From NCBI GenBank assembly GCA_903813345.2, contig CAIIXF020000009.1:19681759-19745758 (forward strand): DNA of 64,000 bases. Reading direction: 5' to 3'. The DNA comes from Owenia fusiformis. Taxonomy: Eukaryota; Annelida; Polychaeta; Sabellida; Oweniidae. The notes below the pieces were generated by a model. It ran no database searches and had not been told where the DNA came from. It was given only the letters and a program-made list of their open reading frames with translations. The position numbers and the translations under genes were made by a program. Position 1 is the stretch's first letter; the number at the start of each line of letters is the position of its first letter. This document shows, piece after piece, positions 9,213 through 52,335 of the stretch.

Positions 9213-9213
9213 A

Positions 9214-9353
9214 TGCCTGGGTCACATTTGCTCCGATTCATCGGCTGGCGCCCGGCCGATTGAGTGTTTTGTTCAAAATTGTATACAGTTTTGACCAGAA
9301 TACTCAATCGGCCAGGTGCCGGACGATGAATCGGAGCAAATGTGACCCAGGCA
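9214..9353. repeat. hairpin MITE, copy 2 (140 bp, TAA duplication)
   Basis: A palindrome with termini TGCCTGGGTCACATTTGCTC and its inverse, flanked by TAA at 9211-9213 and 9354-9356. A 3-bp TWA duplication is typical of the PIF/Harbinger superfamily, so this is probably a Harbinger-type MITE. It is the better preserved of the two copies in the window. Confidence 0.8.
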
Positions 9354-9696
9354 TAAATCTCTTCAGGAAACCCTTATCATCATAAATTAACCAAAAAACA
9401 TCGTGTTTTTAACAATTCAAAGGTTCACTATAGGAATTGTGGTCGTTACACAATTATGAAGTCATGAATGCACATAGTCCATTGAACAACATGGGGGATT
9501 TTATAATATCCCCCTCACTCCTCGAAAGTGGAAATCTAGACATTGGGCTCATATTTTGAGATTAATCTGATTTCGGGCATGCTAGGTAAATTAAAAATCG
9601 ACAAAGAAATCTTGTGATAAGCATGACCTCTACTGGTCCAACCAAATTTTGAACATCTTTCAACAAAATGATTCTTAATTAGGCAGAGTAATACCA

Positions 9697-9780: not shown

Positions 9781-12700
9781 TTATGGATATCGATTAACTG
9801 CGACTGGTCGTTTGTAAGTTGGACGAGGTTGTTTGTATGGTACACCATAGACTGGTTCTTCGTATGTGGGAGCGACATATACTTGTTTCTTTGGTTTATA
9901 AACTGGTTTCTTGTAAGTAGGGGGAGGGTAGGCTGGTTTTACGTAGTTTTGTTGGTGTTTCACATAGGCCGCTTTGCTACAAACCTTTGTGTAGTCGTCG
10001 AAAGCTGTCCCTGAAACAAAACGTAGATTTGACGATTAAAGTCTATGCTAGCCGTATGACTTAGTATACCGCTACTTGTCAAGGGAATTTTGACTTATAG
10101 ATCACAAGCTAGTCTGTGGGGCCAATGAACGTGAGAAAATACCTCTTGGGTATATCCCGTTATGGTCGTAATGAACCCATGTAATCATGGAATGATTACC
10201 AGGAACACTTCCTTGGAGGAGCCTTGTGTTTGTCCTTCAAATGTCTTGTTCATTCTATAGTGTGTCATTTCAGTTTTAACCAGATTTATATGGAGTTGTT
10301 GATTTTCTTTCTCAGAGATATTTCTTTTTCTTTTTGACGTTTCGTAGGATGTCCATCCCACTTCTTCAGAAATAAAATTAGAAGTGGGATGGACATCCTA
10401 CGAAACGTCAAAAATAAAAATAAAATATCTCTGAGAAAGAAAATCAACAACTTTGTACATTACTACCAGAGAGATGAACATTCATAGAAATAATTATTTA
10501 CATTTCAAGAGGTTGATTACACGACCATTGACCAATAATTAAGTATTCCAGCTAATGTAACAGCGAACAAGTTGAACAGAGAATTCTTCTTCCTTTCCCT
10601 GCAATATGATTGTATTATTTATTTGTAATCATAGGTTTTGTTTTTAATATTGGGCTATACGTAAAACACTTACCATATGGGCAATTCAAATAGAAAGGTT
10701 TGCAACATATACAAGGCTTGGTCTTGCCGGTGTATGGATCAGTCTTATAGTCACAGCCACACTGGATGAAACCATTTTTGTTGTAACTGTCAGGAAACAG
10801 GCCACTTGGATTGTAATCGCATTTTGAGTCGCATGGATCTAAAAAGAGATGTGGACATTTTATGTATATTACTAGTAGTTATAAGTACAGCTTACTCGTT
10901 CATATAAGTTACAGATCCATATCTCATAATATATAATGATAAGGAGAGTTTGTAGTTTATAAAATTTTAACGTTTTTTAAAGTTTTAAATACACTTGTTC
11001 TTTATGGAGCTTTTTTCTGTCTCAGAATCTGATAAAGATCAACCGTGCGACAAGTCAAATCAGATGATGTGATACTGAACCTAACACTAAAATGTAGCAA
11101 AGCGAGAGACACGATAAGTAATTTATTCTTTCGAGGTCGCAAGCGATAAATTCAAATATGAAACGCGGTTGAGGTTTGTGAAATTTTTGGAAAAAAGTCA
11201 AATACAGATAGTAATAATGGTTTTTGATGGATTGGATTATTGTCTGGGAGTACGTAATTAATGGGTTGAATTTGCCATAGGCATCTAGTTCAAAACATAG
11301 CATTACTTTATGCATGCTCATCATATGACATAAATTAATTTTTGTGCTTATCATTAAGCGTACCTCAAATCTGCATTCATCTCATTAGGTTCAGTGATGC
11401 CTTTAAAGAGACAATCAGATCTAGCGGGCTGGCAAACAAAAAATTGTTTCAATTTTAGAATATTTCTGACTCATGTCATTCTTTGTCATGTCTATTTTCT
11501 AAAAATACCCAAATGTGCACACTTTATTTCAGGAAAACTAAAAATAAAAGATCTTTACAATAATGTATTATTTTTCTATAAGAATGGTTACCATTCTTAT
11601 TATTTGGGAGAATTTAAACATTTCCCCCACTTTTGCACTTTGAATCCAAAATAACTTCACCAATTTATAACACGTTGTGAATCTTTTCGGAGATATTGTA
11701 TTTGATATTGTAAGGAATAGTTTGGTAGGTCAATTGTACATATTGCTTGTAACTTTGTCGCCCCTATAGATCTGATTCTGCCTTTAAAAAACTATGTGTT
11801 TTCAAATGACTATTTTTGATTGCTATAGTGACACCGTCCATCCTGCAACGAATCCGGATTTGCGCATTGTTTTATTCTATTGCGATGTATAATTCATATT
11901 TATGATAAAAACATAAAGCATCACCCTTTTCTTCCAAATAGGGAGTTACTATAGCTCAATAAAGCTGAATAAATAGATGCCAGCGCACTTGCTTTTAGTT
12001 GTTTTGATTGGGCTGCCATAGGCGACATTGGTAAAAACTTGCAATAGTAACTTATATGTAATTTCATGATTAATCAAAAAGTTTGGCTGAATTTGTCTAA
12101 ACTCGAATGGCAAACTATGGGATCACCCTGTCAATGTACAATTTGTAGTTTTTAAAGAATTCTAACATTGTATCAATGGAGATTTGGTCAACACTTTTTT
12201 AGAAAAGTTACAAAGTCATAAAAATGATTTAAATAATATAACTGTATAAATCAAAATTACATTTTTTCATGGAACATTTTTCACTGTACCTATTAAAAAA
12301 GGAAAGGTAAGTCATTTAGGGTCTGATATGCAAATCTTAAAATTCAACTAAAAGAGAATTAGCAGGATATCAAAACTTCATAGAAACTTATTTTTCAGAA
12401 TGCTACTAAATCTCAGCTAAACAGTCACAACACAATTGTATTCTTTAATTCGTGTTCACTTTTTTTGCTATCTCTTCTACAAACCATTGTTCAAAATCTA
12501 GAAACCTCGCGTAGTTGGATTTCATTCGATTTTTAATTGGCTCTGAATGATCCCTAGTTTGTTTATGAAAAGTTTAAATTTCTACTTTCAGCTTATATTT
12601 CCCCGTTTCGTTGATGAATAGGGCCAAGAGTATGTATACTTACTGTAAGCAGCTTGTTTGTATTTTGGCTTGTACCCACAGACTCCATAATCACCCAACT

Positions 12701-14261
12701 GTTTCTTGTTACAAAGGTCACCGTCGCAGAAGTACCAGAGGGAATCTCCTTGGTATGCACATTGTTTGTAAGGATCAACACCATAGGGCAAGTTCTCCTT
12801 GTTAGCACAACCACGATACACAACTACAACATGATCGGTAGGAGGTTAAGTATCAAATTAGAAGCACTTGGATAGAGATAATCATTAAATCAACCGAAAC
12901 GATGTGAATGTAAAAATGCGTACACAAGAAAATATTCTAGATTGTCAAAATATGATGTTTCGTTCCTTCTAACCATTAACAGAGGGATTTCCTAACACAC
13001 TTAAACGGTTTATAGAGTTTATAAATCTCTTATGTATATAACTTATAAAGCGTGTGCACTACGTCATCATTTGTTTCACAGCACTCTCCATTCATAAGGA
13101 CCCATCGTTGTTTATAAGTGAGTAATTTCCTATCTCGTTTACTTAGACACACGTGTAGTTATTAGTAGGCCAGGGACTCATAGTGATACTTGGCATAAAG
13201 TCATACTACTTGCAATAACACCTTATAAACAAAAAATTTGGAGGAAAAATTATTCATTTTCGGTGAAAAGAACATTAGAATTGATCGATTAAGAATACAT
13301 CTATTTGTATGAGTACATCTTTTTGTGAAATTTACTTATACTTATAATGTATAGCTATACACATAACATAAGTTATGCTTTCATGTATGAGCGAAATCTC
13401 TCTATTATTGGAAGCATAATAAGATGGTTATTCTTAGATTATTTTAAATTTTCTTGTTTATTTGCTTTTTGTCTTTCGTTATATATCTCTTATTTTTAAA
13501 TGATGATTAAATCAAACGTTTTAATGACTTGACGTACGTCCATTTGGATCCTTTCTTATGAAACACTTTCCGGATTTACATGCCCATTTGTCCAAGGAGG
13601 CAGCATCAGCATAGTCGGTGAGAGCACACGCCAGATAACCAGCGTTGGGGGATACCACATCCCAATAGTTTGGGCGTTTGCTGACGTAACCGGATGGAGC
13701 ATAGTTACAATCGTAGCAACGATCTATAAAATATGGAGATATTCAAAATTAGAAAACGATTGCAATGGCATATGGAATATACCCATATATAAAATTAACA
13801 TTTCGAAAACAAGAGTCAAATTTTAAGTGATAAAATGTTCAAACAGCAAGAAATTTAACTACTACTATTATATATTTATCAAGCTTATTAATTTCTTATA
13901 TACAATGAATACCATATATACAATAAATAGACAGTAACAATAAACTGCTTTCTTAAATATTGTTGAGGTAATTATTGTCAATCATACATCCTCCTCATGG
14001 AGATTATACATTGCATCTATTACAAAACAATACTTTGGTTCAGAACCAATGGCGTTCATGTCTAATGGAGTTCATGTTAAATGGGGCAAATAATATTACA
14101 GCAATATGAAATAAATATCATAAAAGTAAACATCTGAAATCAATATATCAAGTTGTCTTTAAATTCAACAAAATAAAATGTATTAATTACTTACATTCAC
14201 CCTTTTGTGCAGCTCCAAAGACGGCACTTAGACCGATGGTAAAAATGACAACTCCCAACAT
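9781..14261 (-). CDS. secreted LU (Ly6/uPAR) + chitin-binding-like protein with Tyr/Pro/Lys tail
   Basis: Five coding exons: 14261-14195, 13723-13538, 12823-12644, 10838-10674 and 10010-9781. All have GT-AG borders, all introns are phase 1, and they total 828 nt, giving 275 aa. Residues 1 to about 18 are a signal peptide (MLGVVIFTIGLSAVFGAA). Residues 25-123 form an LU domain. It opens CYDC (25-28), has Cys at 55, 71, 76, RGC at 88-90, Cys106, and ends FCDGDLCN (116-123), where the usual CC is FC. Residues 147-210 are a Cys-rich module with GLFPD, CxCC and NCPYGTAFDDYTKVC. This resembles a type-2 (peritrophin-A) chitin-binding domain, but with extra cysteines. Residues 213-275 are a Tyr/Pro/Lys-rich tail (KPAYPPPTYKKPVYKPKK). 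The protein is secreted; a role in extracellular, cuticular, shell or adhesive matrix is inference. Splice sites were called by eye; the frame is continuous across every junction. Confidence 0.85.
10294..10453. repeat. ~160-bp hairpin MITE in intron 4 of the LU gene
   Basis: The left arm (GTTGTTGATTTTCTTTCTCA...GAAGTGGGATGG read inverted) and right arm (10385-10453) are almost perfect inverse copies around a loop near 10372-10384. No open frame is present. It is intronic to the 9781-14261 gene. Confidence 0.75.
11380..11780. repeat. dispersed repeat copy with empty TA target site
   Basis: Direct, diverged copy of 16553-16861 plus 17662-17710. Shared blocks include 'aaaaaattgt', 'tcatgtctattttctaaaa', 'atgtattatttttctgtaa' and 'ggtaggtcaattgtac'. 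At 11731-11745 it runs straight through the point where the other copy carries the 798-bp MITE 16862-17659, so it serves as the unoccupied site. It lies in an intron of the LU gene. Confidence 0.75.
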
Positions 14262-14312: not shown

Positions 14313-14320
14313 CTTTTATA
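14313..14320 (-). promoter_or_regulatory. TATA box of the LU gene
   Basis: TATAAAAG on the minus strand, its far base 59 nt upstream of the ATG at 14261. The surrounding about 80 bp are shared with the orphan exon at 1573-1654, which supports this as a real core promoter. Confidence 0.7.
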
Positions 14321-34635: not shown

Positions 34636-34722
34636 TCAAAAATATCGGGTTTGATTTAACCGTTGTTCGATAAATATGTTATCAAAAACAAATCTGAAGA
34701 ATAAGTTCATGAGTATACTTAC

Positions 34723-35034
34723 TTCAGTTGTCCCAAACACCCAACTGTTCTCATCAACAACTTCAAGAGGATGGGAAATATTTTCATCAATCAGCTCACA
34801 CGACTTAGATTCCTCATTAAAGTTGAAGGACGTACATGTTTTTCTATTGTGACAATTTCGAGCACATTGTAAGACATAGGGGGCCGTCAGTACTTGAGAG
34901 GGTACAGCTATAATGTGTTTTCCGTGTCTCAAGTTAATTTGCGATGATTTAATTCCATTCGAGCATGTTGTATATCCCAAAGAAACTATCCATATGACGA
35001 TTAACTTAAGAACACAGTGCATTCTTATTGCCAT
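34723..35034 (-). CDS. signal peptide + PAN/Apple domain exon (probable 5' exon of the discoidin gene)
   Basis: ATG at 35034-35032 opens MAIRMHCVLKLIVIWIVSLG, a signal peptide, followed by a PAN/Apple-type module. Its Cys pattern is CARNCHNRKTCTSFNFNEES then C-ELI, the usual 'C...C....C.SF.Y.....C.L' run, ending NSWVFGTTE. A consensus GTAAGT donor follows at 34722, in phase 0 after 104 codons. PAN domains bind proteins or carbohydrates outside the cell and are often paired with discoidin domains in invertebrate secreted proteins. The discoidin exons lie 3.8 kb downstream on the same strand, but their first exon enters in phase 1, so one more exon must lie between, or the genes are separate. 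Confidence 0.8.
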
Positions 35035-35056
35035 TATAAAAATGTTGATTCTTGTA

Positions 35057-36934
35057 AAGTTATTAATGGAACTCTACACCGAAGTTCCGTAACACATAAA
35101 TCATGCGCACTTGTTCATTTGATCGCCCAATAACAAAGTCAGTCGGTCAAGCCTTGATCATTTCCCGATTAATTTTCATATTATACCTGCATGTCCTTTC
35201 AATTATAAGAAGTGATGACCAATTTTCAGATTTTAGATTTCATTCCAAATCCAATGTTTTTTATTTGACGCTAAACTGTGATGTTTGTTAATGTAAGATG
35301 GTGCTAGGTTGAAAGAGATGGATCAACTCTCTCGCGCTAATCCTGCGCTGAACAAAGAACTTCTTCCAGGATCAGAAAAAACACTTCTTACTGCATCAAT
35401 CATGCAGCACTGAATGGACTACAATTGTATTTAGAAACCATACATATATCATTATGACATATTTATAGAACAAATACTGTAATTTGGCTGTACAAGCTAC
35501 CATAATCATTTATAATCTTACCTGGAAATTATCACTTAGACACAGAGTTTATGATATAGAAATGAATGAGCAGTAGAAGATCTATCAATCTAAGCAACAT
35601 GCCACAATGCAATTTATTGTCTTTTAATTTTACAAACCGGAGAAGTTATGTCCATGGACCCTAATTGATGATGATAAGCCGCTATTAATCGATTTGAATT
35701 AGATTAGAGAAAATAAGTTAAATCACGCCTAGTAGCCCGTTATGCCAATGCTGCTACGTTTTGAAAAATTACGTAATAAGAAGTTTCAAAAATAAGAATT
35801 CCTAGAATTGATCTAGCATAATGGTAGATCATTTGTTTCTGTCAAATTCATGTTAAACAGAATAATTCAAGAATATATAATATCACATTTAAAGTGACTA
35901 CCTTGCTTCAGCGGTAAAATACATACATCTTAACCGTAGTTGTATATACTCATCTCACCATTGTCATTTACCCCGAGCTACATATATAAAACAAAGTAGA
36001 ATTGTTCGAAAAGGTGGTCCAAACTCCAGAAGTCGTCTAGCACTTTCTTTAAATTACCTCCATAAGGCTGAACAGGTTTCATGGTTGAGCCTACTCAAAT
36101 GTTTCCCAATTACTCAGATGCGAGTAGGTAGTTACCAGCTTCGCCACCAGGTGGCTGATTCGGGGGCATTAACATGGCAGGGTATTAAAAAATTCCCTTA
36201 AACTTGAATATGCATCAGTTTTAGTGGTTCACTTTGTTTTGTACCCTTATGTATCTGATAGTTATACAAATTAAAATATGTCCAGTAAAAGAAAATATTA
36301 TCTGCCCAACACAGGAAAAGATACTTCACTTTTTGTGGTTTTACAACATGGGGTCTATGGGGAATCTCCTCGACCTAGAAGTCACATTTTCAAAGAAAAT
36401 TAAGTTGTCAAAGTTGATAAAATCTTTTCAAAACCACATTTCTAAAAGTAATTTTACATGTAGATTCCAAATACGACATCAGTTTGACTGAATTGTGAAT
36501 TTTTAATGACGTAAATCAAGATTATTTCTACTCGCATCTGGGATATTCAATGCCGATGCATACAGTATAGCCTATAGCCTACTCGGATCATTGGAAACAC
36601 AATATGATGAAAAGTCATCGCTGTATTTGAGCTTTTTAAATTATTACACCATTCCCCTCTTATCATATCTAAACAACGTGTCTATTGGGACACATAAACA
36701 TACTAAATCATTCATTATTCGTGTGCGAAGACAGTTTATTGATACAATAAAATTTACAATAGCCAATTGCATAATCATGTCGAAGCTTTGTTAGAAATTC
36801 GAACTATCCCAAGTCTCCAGGGACTTCAGAATTATCAATTTATGTCGGCAGGCCATTTTGCAAATCAATGATTTCTGTTGTTTCCCAACACTCGTAAAAT
36901 AAATAATGTTTATCGCTTTAAATCATATGAGATT
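35057..36934. other. spacer between the PAN exon and the calmodulin-like gene
   Basis: Holds the upstream region of the PAN gene (right of 35034) and the 3' region of the EF-hand gene (left of 36935). Open frames at 36234-36491 and 36591-36794 (plus) have no family resemblance. No element with clear termini is seen. Confidence 0.35.
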
Positions 36935-42900: not shown

Positions 42901-45900
42901 AAAGTAACGATGAGTATATCAAATAGATTCAATATGCATTTTGCATTTGCATAATGATTACAAGGGATCTACATGCGAGCATAACATGGTATCTATAACT
43001 ACATGTCTTCGTTTACCTCTTGACTAGCTGTGATCAGTTTATGAAGCATCAATTTAAAAGCATGAAAGAAGACTATTATCACCTTCAAAATATTCTGAGA
43101 TATATTCTTGTTCTGCTTCCTAGTCAACTCGTACCCAAGACAACTCGTACCCAAGACAACTTGTACCCAAGACAACTCGTACCCAAGTCAACTGGTACCC
43201 AAGACAACTCGTACCCACGTTTATTTTCTGTATTATGGGTGCATATAAGAAAACAAATTGAGTCTGTGTCAAAATGTTTAATGTTATAATGTGCCTCAAT
43301 ATTTTTTCTGAATTTAGAAGACATTTTTTCTTAATGGATTAAGCAAAGCATTTTGTTTTAACTTGGATTACCTTTGAAGTGCTTTGAAGGGCTTGTTCTC
43401 AACTTTTTTTGTAATACATATATATAAATGAATATAATTAAAACAGTAATTTTTCAACAAATGAATCAAACAATTAATTTAGCTTATGCATTCAGAGAAA
43501 ATTAATAAGGGAACTTTAATCTGTTAATTTCTTTTCCATTTTGAACTTAATTGGATTATATTTGAACACATGCATGCAAGTTTTGAAAATCTTTATATTT
43601 TTGATAATACCATCATATTTCAAGATGAATTAGATCTGATACTTGTTCCAAACACTCATTAACATACAAAAATACCACTAATATTGTGAACAATGATTAT
43701 GAATATGTGGAATAAACATAAATCTCTTCCCTCGAACATCTGAATCTGTGACCAATATATTTGGTCACAAATTTCAATCGATTTCTTCCAAAAACTCTTC
43801 TACATACTTCAAACTATTCTGAACTGTATGTAACCGTTATAATATGTATATCTATACCCATTCCCAGCCCAACACTTGATTCAAAACAAAAGATATACTT
43901 GGGTACAAGTTGTCTTGGGTACGAGTTGTCATGGGTACGAGTTGTCTTGGGTACGAGTTGTCTTGGGTACGACTTGACTTGGGTACGAGTTGTCTTGGGT
44001 ACGAGTTGACCAGTTACCCTTGTTCTAACATCCCCTCTCTTACCTCACTCGCATTTTCACAATCAAAAGCAAGTTTGGCATGACTATCCAAACACGTACA
44101 CACTCCAAACAGATGATACTAAATAGGTAATCATAATTTTGACGTTTTTTATCAAACAAAGCATGTGTGTAGCGTTATCCTGTAAAAACGATCACTTGGT
44201 GTGTCGTACAAGTTCCATTACCCTGGGGTTACGGAGCAAGATCAAATAACCGGAAAGTGTAACAATAAGTTTTTGTGAAACATCCGAAACATCGACCCAT
44301 ACTACAAACATAAGTAAACATATTCTTATTTATCTTGCAAAAAAGATGTGCAAGGTATGTTTGATCAACTGAAATCAATAACTAAATGACAACAAACCTT
44401 TTTAGCTATATATCAATTAAATATTTGATGATGTTTTTGAATAATTTGAGAGTAATTTTGAGAAGACCCCTTATTACGGAAAGCTAAAGGGGATATACCG
44501 CAGAATTTAAAATTCAATGGAGTTTTAACATGGGAGTGATATCACACACCGCGGCCCAGTCAGATATATTTCTGCGCACTTTATTTATTTAATTCACTTT
44601 GCACAACGCGCCCCTGTAATTCATTCAGTGCGCAATTAAAAATTGTTTATGAGTGATATCGCACACCGCGGCCCAGTAAGATCGATTTCTGCGCACTTTA
44701 TTTATTAACATACTCAAAATATCGCGCTGAAGCTTGTATATGCTGGCGCGATGTAATTATAGTTTTCTGTTAATAAATGCCCAACAAGAAAGGGTAGCAC
44801 AACGAATTCAACTTTTTTCGAAAGACTGCAGACTTGACCTGCGAAATTGTAATTTTGGATCACAGTGATGCCTCTAGAGAGGATATCTATGAGAATTACA
44901 GATTATAGTGCGCAGAATTATAAAGTCAAACTGACCTCAAAATGGTAGTACACAGTGTACACTGCCATCTTTCAATAAAGTAACTACAGACCTTCGTATA
45001 CAAAATACCAGAATGATTGATGTAATACCTGTATACCATTTCTTCTGGGAGAAGGAAAGTTCCTATATGTATTCCATGGCCGTAGCCAGGGGGCCTCACC
45101 CCCCTCCCCCTTGCCAAATATTCGTTCAAAATCATGCAGTTTTTCACCATTCTTAGCACTTTTCGCATGATTTTTTTTGCCATAACTGTCAAAAAGCTCC
45201 CCCCTCTTGGCAAAATCTCCCCCTTGGTAAAACCACTCCCCCAGGTTAATCCAGGATACGGGTCTGTATTCTTAGACGAGATTGTTCAAGAACATAAGGT
45301 AGACATAAGTGTCACCTGTTAAAAGCTAGGAGATCTTTTCTAAGTTATTAAGTCATCAATCAGCAGACTGGTAATTGTATCCCCCACCCACTTCAAACTC
45401 CATACACTAACATACTATTACAATTTTATCTTTGTTTATTTGACTGTAGAAGGTGTACATTCATAGCATTGAATTGCATTTCATTGCATTGTATTGTATT
45501 GTATAGCACATCATTGTATTGTATTGTCCTGCATTTTATTGTATTGCACTGCATTGTATTGTATTGCAGTGCATTGTATTCTATTGCATTATATTGTACT
45601 GTATTGCACTGTATTATATTATATTGCACTGCATTGTACTTTATTGCACTGCATTGTATTGTACTGCAGTGTACTACATTGTATTGCGCTGCATTGTATT
45701 GTATTGCACTGCATTATAATGTATTGCACTGTACCACATTGTGTTACACTGCATTGTATTACACTGCATTGTTTTGAATTGCACTGCAATATATTGCACT
45801 GCACCATATTGTATTGCATTGCATTGCAGTGCACTGCATTGTATTATATTGCACTGTATTGTATTGCACAGTATTGTATTGCATTGTCTTGAATTACACT

Positions 45901-48145
45901 GCATTTTATTACACTGCATTGTATTTTATTGCACTGCATTGTATTGTACTGCAGTGTACTGTATTCTATTGCACAGCATTGTTTTGTATTGCACTGTATT
46001 GTATTGCATTGTATTGAATTGCACTGTATTCTATTGCACTGCACTGAACTGCGATGTATTGTATTGTACTGTATTGTATTGCACTGCACTGTATTGAACT
46101 GCGATGTATTGTATTGCACTGCATTGTATTGCACTGTACCACATTGCATTGCACTGCATTGTATTGAAATGAACTTCATTGTATTGCACTGCACGGCATT
46201 GTTTTGCACTGTATTGCATTGCACTGCATTGTATTGCATTATATTGCACTGTATTGTATTGCATCGTATTGCACTGCATTTTATTGTATTATATTGCACT
46301 ACATTGTATTGTATCATATTGCACTGCATTTTTTGCATCATATAACACTGCTTTGTATTGCATCATATTACACTACATTGTATTGCATCATATTGCACTG
46401 CATTGTATTGCATCATATTGCTCTGCATTGTATTGCATCGTATTGCACTGCATTTTATTGTATTATATTGCACTACATTGTATTGTATCATATTGCACTG
46501 CATTTTTTGCATCATATAACACTGCTTTGTATTGCATCATATTACACTACATTGTATTGCATCATATTGCACTGCATTGTATTGCATCATATTGCTCTGC
46601 ATTGTATTGCATCATATTGCACCGCATTGTATTACATCATATTGCACCACATTGTATTGCATCATATTGCACTGCATTGTATAACATCATATTGCACTGC
46701 ATTGTATCGCATCATATTCCGTATTTACCATTTCGTTACAGTTTTATTACATAAAATGTTATTTATAAGATTATAATTTTCAAACATTGAAAATATTTTA
46801 TACAATATCAATTAAAAGATATGAAATGGCCCAAAATAATATATTTTCAATGGAACCCTTTGCAAGGGTCACTTCAACATAACGCCATGTGTAATCTGTA
46901 TGTATACGCCCTCTTTTAATGAACATTATCTTTGAAACCATATTAGAATCGAATCTGATAAAAGTGCGCATCATGGTCCTGGATGTGCTGCGCGGTAGAA
47001 TCGGGAAATTTCAAAGTTCTCCTCGTTAGAGCCATCAATATTTTCCAAAATTGTCATTTCGCTGGTTCACTCCGCAGTCTTTCGAAAAAAATCAAATTCG
47101 TGGTGCCACGAATTTTTATTCGTTATTTATTCACAGATAATCATTTTTTCATCGCGCACTGAATGCCGGAATTTCTGCGCACTTTATTTTAATTAACTTT
47201 GCACAACGCGGCCCCTGTAATTCATTCAGTGCGCGATGAAATCTATCTGACTGGGCCGCGGTGTGTGATATCACTCCCATGTTAAAACTCCATTCGATTT
47301 TGAATTATGCGCATGTCCCCTATAGCTTTCCGTACCTTATTACAATATGCGATACTCTATATAATGAAAAAGTATAGTCATGCACTATACACATGAAGGA
47401 TGTCCTGGGAAATTTAGCCTTGGGAATGAAGGAATTTTGAGAGATTACCTGTGGTCTCCGATTCAGTTAATTTCCCACTCTAAAAATAAATAAATATACA
47501 ACGTTAGTAAAGTAAATTAATTTTTTCAGATAGTGAAAGAATGTGACCTATTTAACACATATGGTGCACAGACAGGTGACGCACCTCTTGGGCAATTATT
47601 ATGATCAAAGCATAGTCGTAGTTGAATAATATAACAAAATATATGCCCAATAGGCAAAGAAAATCCCAATTATAAAATATTAGAAAATGAAACTCAGACA
47701 AGCACATATTATTTGTTGATGTTAATAAATGTAAAGATTTTATTAAATATGAAACAATCAGTGAGTGAAATGCCAAATAAAAACATAATGATGAAAACTA
47801 AAAATATGAACTTTGATTCAAAGTGCAAAACCCATTATCATACTCACTATTTCTTTGTCGGACTATCTCAAATATAAAAGGAAATAAAAAAGAAAGACAG
47901 TTGTAGGATATTCTGAAAATATTGTGTCACAAATAAATTTCCCGAGACGTTTTCTGTAAAAATTGTCAAGGAGATTGCTCCGCCTGCCTTGTCCCATGCC
48001 TGCCTACTCCCATGCGATAATATGGCAGTTATCCGCATTGTTACAAATGATAAGCTTAAACACAAATTGCAAATACGTCCATCATTATGCTAGTAAAGCA
48101 AATGGATTAGAATAAATCAATTAATTAAAATGTATCACTCACCAT
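36935..48145 (-). CDS. calmodulin-like protein with four EF-hands
   Basis: Seven coding segments: ATG at 48145-48143, then 47862-47848 (15 nt), 47479-47449 (31 nt), 41505-41362, 40001-39888, 38342-38211 and 36966-36935. They total 471 nt, giving 156 aa, with every phase consistent. The N-terminus reads [25 protein letters not shown]. The four calcium loops are [12 protein letters not shown] (26-37), [12 protein letters not shown] (62-73), [12 protein letters not shown] (100-111) and [12 protein letters not shown] (136-147). All acidic ligands are kept; loop 4 has Asn where Gly6 is usual. It ends [10 protein letters not shown], like the calmodulin tail. Differences from true calmodulin (~149 aa) include a longer N-terminus and a linker with [12 protein letters not shown]. 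It is a cytosolic calcium sensor, and could also be classed as troponin-C-like. The four large exons and the last exon are secure. The ATG exon and the 15-nt exon are likely but rest on splice signals alone. Confidence 0.9.
37226..37733. mobile_element. ~510-bp MITE with ~29-bp inverted ends
   Basis: TCTCCATCTAAAATGTCACT at the left end and its inverse at 37704-37733 are perfectly matched through 'cgactttt'. The interior includes a local repeat ('cacaattgctcgtt.cta', at about 37461 and 37500). It lies in the last intron of the calmodulin-like gene. Confidence 0.7.
38785..39445. mobile_element. ~660-bp nested-hairpin element
   Basis: Outer arms: 'ttggatacagggtttatccc' (38790-38809) and its inverse at about 39416-39436. 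Inside are two further hairpins, one around 38818-38952 ('cccatacttggacgtgtta') and one around 39226-39355 ('ggttcaggatattggg'). It has no coding capacity and is intronic to the calmodulin-like gene. Confidence 0.7.
40390..40715. repeat. weak inverted repeat around CCGC/GCGG-rich segment
   Basis: Ends 'attacgcggtaa' and 'tattccgcgtaac' oppose each other, with several 'attccgca' and 'tgcggaatatg' words between (40433, 40450, 40606, 40673). It is probably a decayed MITE; its limits are uncertain. Confidence 0.4.
41987..42843. mobile_element. 857-bp foldback MITE with ~300-bp arms
   Basis: The left arm begins GGGGTTTGTAGAAAAAGTCG and contains 'cggcacccggtcgaaaaaa', 'caaaattgagctcgaagctt' and a G-run before 'cgatcgc'. 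The right arm 42535-42843 is its inverse. A 3' fragment of the same family lies at about 60238-60330. It is in the large intron of the calmodulin-like gene. Confidence 0.85.
43125..44008. repeat. inverted pair of 16-bp minisatellites
   Basis: Six copies of CAACTCGTACCCAAGA at 43125-43218 and seven copies of the inverse (TCTTGGGTACGAGTTG) at 43897-44008 enclose about 680 bp of non-coding AT-rich DNA. The immediately outer bases also match inversely (ctggtcaactcg). This fits a foldback transposon whose terminal repeats have expanded as tandem arrays. Open frames 43124-43324 and 43761-44009 are translations of the repeats. Confidence 0.85.
44476..47333. mobile_element. 2.86-kb hAT-like foldback element
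   Basis: Ends ACGGAAAGCTAAAGGGG and CCCCTATAGCTTTCCGT. Flanks CCCTTATT (44468-44475) and ACCTTATT (47334-47341) differ at one base, suggesting an 8-bp duplication as in hAT elements. Inverted similarity reaches inward to about 44880 and 46990 ('gaaagactgc' words, 'acaccgcggccca'). A further direct repeat of 'ttctgcgcactttatttat' lies inside. No transposase is seen; the core is a pentanucleotide satellite. It is in the large intron of the calmodulin-like gene, close to its N-terminal exons. Confidence 0.7.
45455..46716. repeat. pentanucleotide satellite, ~1.26 kb (TATTG/CATTG/CACTG)
   Basis: An unbroken run of 5-bp words related to TATTG, mostly TATTG, CATTG, CACTG and TACTG. Stop codons are rare in several frames, giving long spurious open frames on both strands that translate as repeats of Cys, Ile, Leu, Tyr and His. 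Towards the right it gains a higher-order unit: 46261-46434 is repeated almost exactly from 46435 to about 46608 (174 bp). It is not a gene. Confidence 0.95.
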
Positions 48146-51592: not shown

Positions 51593-52105
51593 TTATGAGG
51601 ACAGTGGTTCATGTCTTTGTGTAGATTCATATACGCTTTCCGGGCCACTGGAATACATGGCGAGCATGTTTCTCATTTCAAACAGCGCGTCATTGAGAGC
51701 AAGTAAACATTCCTCAAAGGATCGGGGGTCTACAATTGAGTGGCCATATTCACCACAGGGGTTGCCAGGGGGATACCACCATGATACTTTTTGTTGGATG
51801 CTATTGTTGAAGAGCTCACAAGGATTAAGAAGATGGCCCTTTGGAGGTAGCATCACTACCTTTACACCATTTTCTTCTAATTTTACCCTGACTTCAGGAT
51901 TGTAATACTGTTTGCATGGATTCAGGGCCCTCCCTGAGCATCCTAATCTATCCCAAACTAGGGTTGACCCCCTAGGTAAAAGCCGGTGAAGTCCTGGACC
52001 ACCAAGATATCGATTCCTGGCTTCAGATGCAATTGCAAACTTCTTGACCACGGAGTCATCTGCATTCCTCTTTGTGAGAGATACCTTCACAAACTGCGAC
52101 TGTGA
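51593..52105 (-). pseudogene. DDE-superfamily transposase fragment
   Basis: Minus-strand open frame with SQSQFVKVSLTKRN, then LVWDRLGC (second catalytic Asp), VKVVMLPPKGHLLNPCELF (family 'V..LPPY.P.LNP.E', third acid Glu) and PRSFEECLLALNDALFEMRN. There is no first catalytic Asp block and no DNA-binding region, so the N-terminal half is missing. After FEMRN the frame runs into the inverted arm and reads about 24 unrelated residues to a stop, so the C-terminus is also lost on this side. The authentic C-terminus survives inverted at 52141-52335. The fold resembles IS630/Tc1-type DDE endonucleases; the family is not fixed. Confidence 0.75.
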
Positions 52106-52140
52106 TATTACAGCTGAGCATATAATCAGGATTTTGTTTA

Positions 52141-52335
52141 CTTGCTCTCAATGACGCGCTGTTTGAAATGAGAAACAACCCTCATGCCTTTAAGGAATTC
52201 TACAAAAAGAGAGCTACTGGTAAAGATTTCAATAGACGCGTTGCAGGAAGTAAAGTGGCAAGACGGGTGAAAAACAGGAGAAACAGAGCCAAAGATGCCC
52301 GCCATGTATTCCAGTGGCCCGGAAAGCGTATATGA
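52141..52335 (+). pseudogene. inverted C-terminal piece of the same transposase
   Basis: The plus-strand frame starts LALNDALFEMRN, identical to the end of the minus-strand fragment. It then continues NPHAFKEFYKKRATGKDF and a basic KVARRVKNRRNRAK tail, ending FQWPGKRI-stop. The basic tail is the natural end of the protein. It faces the main fragment, so it cannot be joined to it by normal transcription. Confidence 0.75.

Follow-up and report, generated by a model that had tools for sequence, protein, structure and literature searches.

Putative secreted matrix proteins of the annelid Owenia fusiformis with LU heads, CBM14-like modules and variable tails

A 64,000-nucleotide stretch of the genome of the annelid Owenia fusiformis (contig CAIIXF020000009.1, positions 19,681,759 to 19,745,758 of the forward strand; hereafter the window) contains a real, intact gene for a protein with a signal-peptide-like start, an LU domain, a divergent CBM14-like module and a tail rich in tyrosine, proline and lysine. 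From its sequence and that of its relatives we propose, with moderate confidence, that this protein is a secreted structural component of an extracellular material containing chitin, most likely the Owenia dwelling tube, and one of a family of about 20 members. The family as a whole probably consists of secreted, chitin-associated and cross-linkable matrix proteins, again most likely of the dwelling tube.

A sequence-only reading of this DNA had proposed a five-exon gene, and its model was reproduced to the residue by an independent derivation: when the GT/AG choices near the proposed exon edges were tried, the longest product was a protein of 275 amino acids on the minus strand. The parts of the gene are as follows (window coordinates).

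14313..14320, minus strand: TATA box TATAAAAG, its start 59 nt upstream of the ATG
14195..14261, minus strand: exon 1, start codon ATG with the signal-peptide-like segment, covering residues 1-22 and part of 23
13538..13723, minus strand: exon 2, N-terminal half of the LU domain, which begins at 13721
12644..12823, minus strand: exon 3, C-terminal half of the LU domain (YRGC ... GDLCN ... C)
10674..10838, minus strand: exon 4, bulk of the CBM14-like cysteine-rich module, covering residues 146-199 with parts of 145 and 200
9784..10010, minus strand: exon 5, remainder of the CBM14-like module (down to 9979), then the Tyr/Pro/Lys tail (9978-9784, residues 211-275)
9781..9783, minus strand: stop codon TAA
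9697..9702, minus strand: poly(A) signal AATAAA, about 80 nt downstream of the stop

All four introns are of the GT-AG type and in phase 1. A pseudogene was ruled out by the open frame, the splice sites, the TATA box and the poly(A) signal, and the joining of the exons is supported by 16 paralogues in which the exons chain from first to last, the parts follow one another in the same order and the introns are in phase 1. The protein was partitioned into a signal segment (residues 1-23), the LU domain (24-144), the CBM14-like module (145-210) and the tail (211-275). As had been proposed, its start is signal-peptide-like, as judged by hydropathy (best 10-residue value of 2.63) and the -3/-1 rule (cleavage candidates after residues 16-18). 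A C-terminal hydrophobic anchor is absent, the best 15-residue hydropathy being -1.16 in this protein and at most 0.17 across 17 genes checked.

Relatives were collected by a six-frame search with the window protein over the 498.26-Mb assembly of 525 contigs, in which the window lies on contig C9. Contigs C1-C12 were taken as the chromosome names sorted as text (1, 10, 11, 12, 2 and so on), such that C2 is chromosome 10 and C5 is chromosome 2. Altogether 88 matches were obtained; grouped by place, they correspond to at least 21 loci with a CBM14-like module on C1, C5, C7, C8, C9, C10 and C11 (loci carry the prefix L below). The LU head, the module and a C-terminal stretch occur together at 20 of the 21 loci, and the first exon was located in 17 of those, window gene included. 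L032 (module and tail only) is excluded from counts over 20, and L013, L030 and L031 are also excluded from counts over 17. A second query sequence searched against the genome yielded no extra full family member, and the window-protein search gave a weak extra match at C7:6686256 (E-value, E, of 0.16). In the output of the spliced aligner, an intron placed in L030 is false (merged), and the last intron of L032 and the first exon of L031 are unreliable.

The introns of the 17 family genes are all in phase 1, and their exons are variously merged. For instance, exons 2 and 3 are fused in seven paralogues (L014-L020) and the module and tail share a single exon in six family genes; the five-exon plan of the window gene is common to three other members. 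Of the 17 genes with a first exon, 16 have a TATAWAWR motif 48-80 nt before the ATG (shuffles: mean 0.33, maximum 3). In the region from -300 to -80 we also counted 31 copies of TAATTA, in 13 of 17 family genes (shuffle mean 5.8), these gene copies being related and not independent. A CATCC element near the TATA box was seen by eye in several family genes and is absent from the window gene. Recent segmental copying was rejected as the origin of the dispersed genes, whose likeness is mostly confined to exons and their edges (pairs of at least 250 bp with more than 70% identity). Likeness beyond the exons was found for local tandem copies on C9, for L027/L029 (C1, C5), for L032 with L027/L029, and for L018/L019 (C1, C11), which share the region from the third exon to the tail.

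Further LU loci were noted from the frames read, with gene models unchecked. Two on chromosome 10 (C2) look like a second set of matrix-like LU genes: in L043, two LU domains flank mucin-like Thr/Pro/Ala repeats and the end is rich in His, Pro and Tyr, and in L044 the LU frame ends in a His-rich stretch. Two of the loci on chromosome 2 (C5) have LU exons and no low-complexity tail in the stretch examined.

The reading of the head as LU-like holds and gains strength from the whole gene family; its profile matches recur in isolated domains, at scores under the cut-offs. Among seven representatives of the 20 members, all matched QVR, a u-PAR/Ly-6-like family (best E 7.1e-4), and DUF7622 (best E 2e-4), and five matched DUF753, at E <= 0.1; the window LU domain aligned to QVR profile positions 2-86 of 86. 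All 20 heads have ten cysteines, a CxxC start and GDLCN. The canonical LU pattern has a Cys-x2-Cys start, ten cysteines and a closing Cys-Asn; relative to it, the family heads are without one canonical cysteine and have one placed after Cys-Asn, the latter being present in LU-only relatives too. With QVR (quiver)-type LU proteins the family has in common a profile match below the cut-off, the ten cysteines and the GDLCN end, whereas it differs in the absence of a C-terminal anchor and in the fusion of LU to a CBM14-like module and a tail.

The chitin-binding-like module of the sequence-only reading stands as a divergent CBM14-like one. In a scan of isolated modules, CBM_14 was matched by 10 of 12 sequences (a set that includes L032 and L013), with a best match of E 1.8e-4 and 22.0 bits against a curated cut-off of 22.1; the window module matched at E 0.0055 and 0.0069 in two scans. 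A profile search of the PDB with the module gave three hits. The top two of these, to a 25 kDa polyphenol-binding protein (E 0.64) and a chitotriosidase chain (E 0.91), are not significant; we take both proteins to carry CBM14-type domains. CBM14 usually has six cysteines, and because the module has nine we term it CBM14-like and divergent. Hand-typed reversed controls (three LU and three module sequences) gave no match to LU or CBM14 families in any of the six cases, and one weak match to YbcO (E 0.05).

The tail of the window protein contains 17% tyrosine, 20% proline and 15% lysine, and P-x-Y occurs in it six times, whereas composition shuffles average 2.14 and reach six in 8 of 1000 cases; the earlier description of the tail holds. 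In 14 of 19 tails P-x-Y is more frequent than in composition shuffles (at most 12 of 1000), the exceptions being L025, L027-L029 and L031; the six-residue tail of L026 was omitted from the shuffles. Across the family, tails range from 6 to 202 residues and show different repeat types, such as (KAPEPAY)n, (YEAEPT)n, PSYQAPAY and HMPSYPQPK. Histidine accounts for 19-33% of the tails of L023 and L027-L029, and net charge is +11 in the window tail, +9 in L013, +8 in L030 and -7 in the acidic tail of L017. In four tail pairs hand-picked by the analyst, tyrosine is retained at 33 of 34 aligned positions versus 98 of 128 for other residues (Fisher p 0.006), and glutamate changes more than the remaining residues. 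Between the window and L013 tails, tyrosine is kept at 9 of 12 sites and other residues at 33 of 51, with a ratio of non-synonymous to synonymous differences per site (pN/pS) of 0.70.

The likeness to mussel foot protein-1 that had been pointed out stands for the motif and falls for kinship. The window tail contains VKPAYPPPTYK, and its KPAYPPPTYK stretch shares the style of the mussel decapeptide, in a single copy, with no array and in a different phylum. Its local score against the decapeptide is 67, reached by 6 of 2000 shuffles, whereas the acidic tail of L017 scores 73, reached by none of 300. Because L017 outscores the window tail, the likeness is one of P-x-Y spacing, found family-wide, and not of descent. 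Homology was excluded on these grounds and by the lack of a decapeptide array in the 65-residue tail.

In 19 of 20 members the LU head has ten cysteines and the module nine, with none in the tails; L013 has ten and eight. The total of 19 is odd, and therefore one cysteine without a partner is expected in the mature protein. Since the cysteine that follows Cys-Asn is present in LU-only relatives as well, the unpaired one is probably in the module.

Ratios of non-synonymous to synonymous substitution (dN/dS) are given here for the LU and module part of pairs with dS of 0.03-0.9 only. They equal 0.000-0.067 in L014-L020 (21 pairs), 0.000-0.151 in L021-L026 (15 pairs) and 0.036-0.061 in L027-L029 (three pairs), and 0.20-0.26 in the three cross-subfamily pairs listed. 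The heads of L015 and L016 differ by 23 synonymous and no non-synonymous changes, and those of L021 and L022, on different chromosomes, by 11 and none. The heads of the three main subfamilies are thus under very strong purifying selection, and the tails are variable. L013 (C9:19675900-19682000), the tandem neighbour of the window gene just outside the window, evolves fast and has signs of decay, with one module cysteine lost, a long tree branch (0.149, compared to a short one of 0.025 for the window gene) and a head dN/dS of 0.38 against the window gene; its first exon was not found with the filter used in the stretch examined around it.

This pattern bears on whether the proteins could be secreted lectins acting in defence or recognition, in which the LU and chitin-binding-like parts would target microbes and the copies would represent an immune expansion. 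The multiple copies, the secreted type, the abundance of cysteine, the carbohydrate-binding-like module and the His-rich tails of the four members named above would suit such a role. However, immune expansions usually have fast-changing binding parts, whereas here the heads of the three main subfamilies are almost frozen and the tails vary more. P-x-Y tails are, to our knowledge, no feature of lectins, and we consider this explanation unlikely.

Several results weigh against the assignment to a chitin-associated matrix. All LU and CBM14 profile scores lie under the Pfam curated cut-offs, and a scan of the full window protein, the domain search suggested earlier, gives DUF7622 alone (E 7.5e-4); the LU and CBM14 matches return in isolated domains and are faint or missing at full length. 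In scans of longer chains (maximum E 10) of four paralogues, three full-length and the fourth without its first exon, LU families appeared in one and CBM_14 in one (E 8.4). For two of the LU representatives there is a further match, to an unrelated zinc-finger profile (best E 0.0038), and an LU profile search of the PDB found no LU-type structure, returning two aldolase chains (E 0.72) that are not relevant. The L031 module matched laminin-EGF weakly and did not match CBM_14. An AlphaFold model of exon 4 alone, with a mean predicted local distance difference test score (pLDDT) of 50.3 and two strands, was not used. The L026 tail has six residues and that of L031 is Tyr-poor, which means that not every member requires a cross-linking tail. 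The window head can be compared with L013 only, dS against all others being above 2 or undefined (saturated). Finally, among the matches listed in the open literature, a statement on chitin in the Owenia tube was not found in the text portions available.

The genome layout points to the setting. The Forkhead profile gave 38 matches, distributed over chromosomes 1, 2, 3, 5, 6, 7, 8, 11 and 12. They form tandem groups on 5 and 7 and, on 11, a pair separated by 30 kb, the single genes being left unassigned; the Fox genes of O. fusiformis are reported on the same nine of 12 chromosomes, with tandem foxQ2 on 5 and 7 and tightly linked foxC/foxL1 on 11 (PMC9539403; this and the other articles are cited from excerpts). 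Three genome matches to the annelid erythrocruorin linker family are consistent with this. A molluscan setting with shell and byssus is therefore ruled out; of the settings proposed earlier, shell, mantle, foot and byssus do not apply to an annelid, the cuticle stays a candidate, and the tube and chaetae join it. The genome has 14 matches to tyrosinase and 20 to chitin synthase, the latter profile also matching in 4 of 14 control genomes, and the chitin synthesis pathway has been reconstructed with O. fusiformis (PMC9977687). The tube of the related O. collaris has sediment grains and a plywood-like lining (PMC4375521). The same chemistry might instead serve body cuticle, chaetae or gut lining, which we regard as doubtful. 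A chitin-binding-like module and the chitin-synthase matches would suit any chitinous product, and annelid chaetae form by chitin release (PMC4705615); a weak argument against this alternative is that many copies with different tails suit a bulk secreted polymer more than chaetae.

Known tube and cement proteins resemble the family in part. Chitin-binding peritrophin-A proteins, whose group has grown by tandem duplication, occur in the tube proteome of the vestimentiferan Paraescarpia; like the family described here, these peritrophin-A/CBM14 (ChtBD2) proteins are multicopy and have a chitin-binding-type module, but the domains named in the excerpts are LamG, VWA and others and not LU, and no P-x-Y tail is mentioned there (PMC8476170). 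The family module also differs from theirs in being divergent and having nine cysteines. The sandcastle-worm cement proteins Pc-1 to Pc-5 and Sa-5 are likewise secreted by an annelid and repetitive, with part of the Pc-1/2 tyrosine converted to 3,4-dihydroxyphenylalanine (DOPA) and a His-rich Sa-5; the Pc-1/2 repeats are Gly-rich, and no LU or chitin-binding module is described in the excerpts (PMC12621633). The words chitin and peritrophin are absent from the main text of that article. Among the matches listed in the open literature (titles and beginnings of abstracts, few subscription journals), we found neither a combination of LU, CBM14-like module and tail nor Owenia tube proteins.

We know of no chitin-binding module and no tail in insect Retroactive, the model for a further alternative in which the window protein would be a non-structural chaperone or traffic factor of chitin. 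Retroactive is a three-finger protein tied to the chitin matrix, as proposed here; it has been proposed to contact chitin through loop aromatics and is needed to bring Knickkopf into the cuticle (PMC3561106). It is, however, predicted to be membrane-anchored and described as lying inside epidermal cells (PMC3561106), whereas the family proteins are without a C-terminal anchor. About 20 copies with mostly repetitive tails also fit a chaperone poorly, and we find this alternative very improbable.

Other features were observed elsewhere in the window. Two long hairpins (9213-9354 and 10294-10452, the second in intron 4) have arms 89-96% complementary and resemble remnants of small mobile elements. 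An open frame at 34639-35073 (minus strand) matches the PAN domain (E 2.8e-9) and has a signal-like start by eye. A 1.25-kb array of CATTG-derived repeats spans 45458-46718, and the arrays at 43125-43217 and 43898-44008 have the 16-nt unit CAACTCGTACCCAAGA in common in opposite orientation. A transposase-like segment at 51596-52147 (minus strand) matches DDE_3 weakly (E 0.019).

In a secreted tube matrix, the CBM14-like module, the LU head or both would hold the protein on chitin. The extended tail would be a cross-linking or space-filling part, in which tyrosine (as DOPA or dityrosine), lysine and histidine would link neighbouring chains, and the unpaired cysteine might join two chains or couple to oxidised tyrosine. 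Members with different tails could be mixed, tuning the material. More tentatively, Owenia, which belongs to one of the earliest annelid branches, may have its own tube polymer system, with LU heads as structural modules in place of receptors or toxins, a CBM14-like chitin clamp, interchangeable Tyr-, His- or Glu-rich tails, the unpaired cysteine as a dedicated inter-chain or cysteinyl-DOPA link, and sister genes with mucin-like spacers between LU heads. The parts of the family proteins are of known kinds; what looks new is the chain that they form, the number of copies and the odd cysteine that is conserved.

If the tube reading is correct, the family would provide a candidate parts list for tube building in Palaeoannelida, the sister group of the remaining annelids (PMC8647411), and would open the question of a single or repeated origin of annelid tubes and cements. 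It would also present the LU fold as the repeated head of a structural polymer, and the differing tails borne by one conserved anchor would form a natural series in which to compare adhesion and stiffness.

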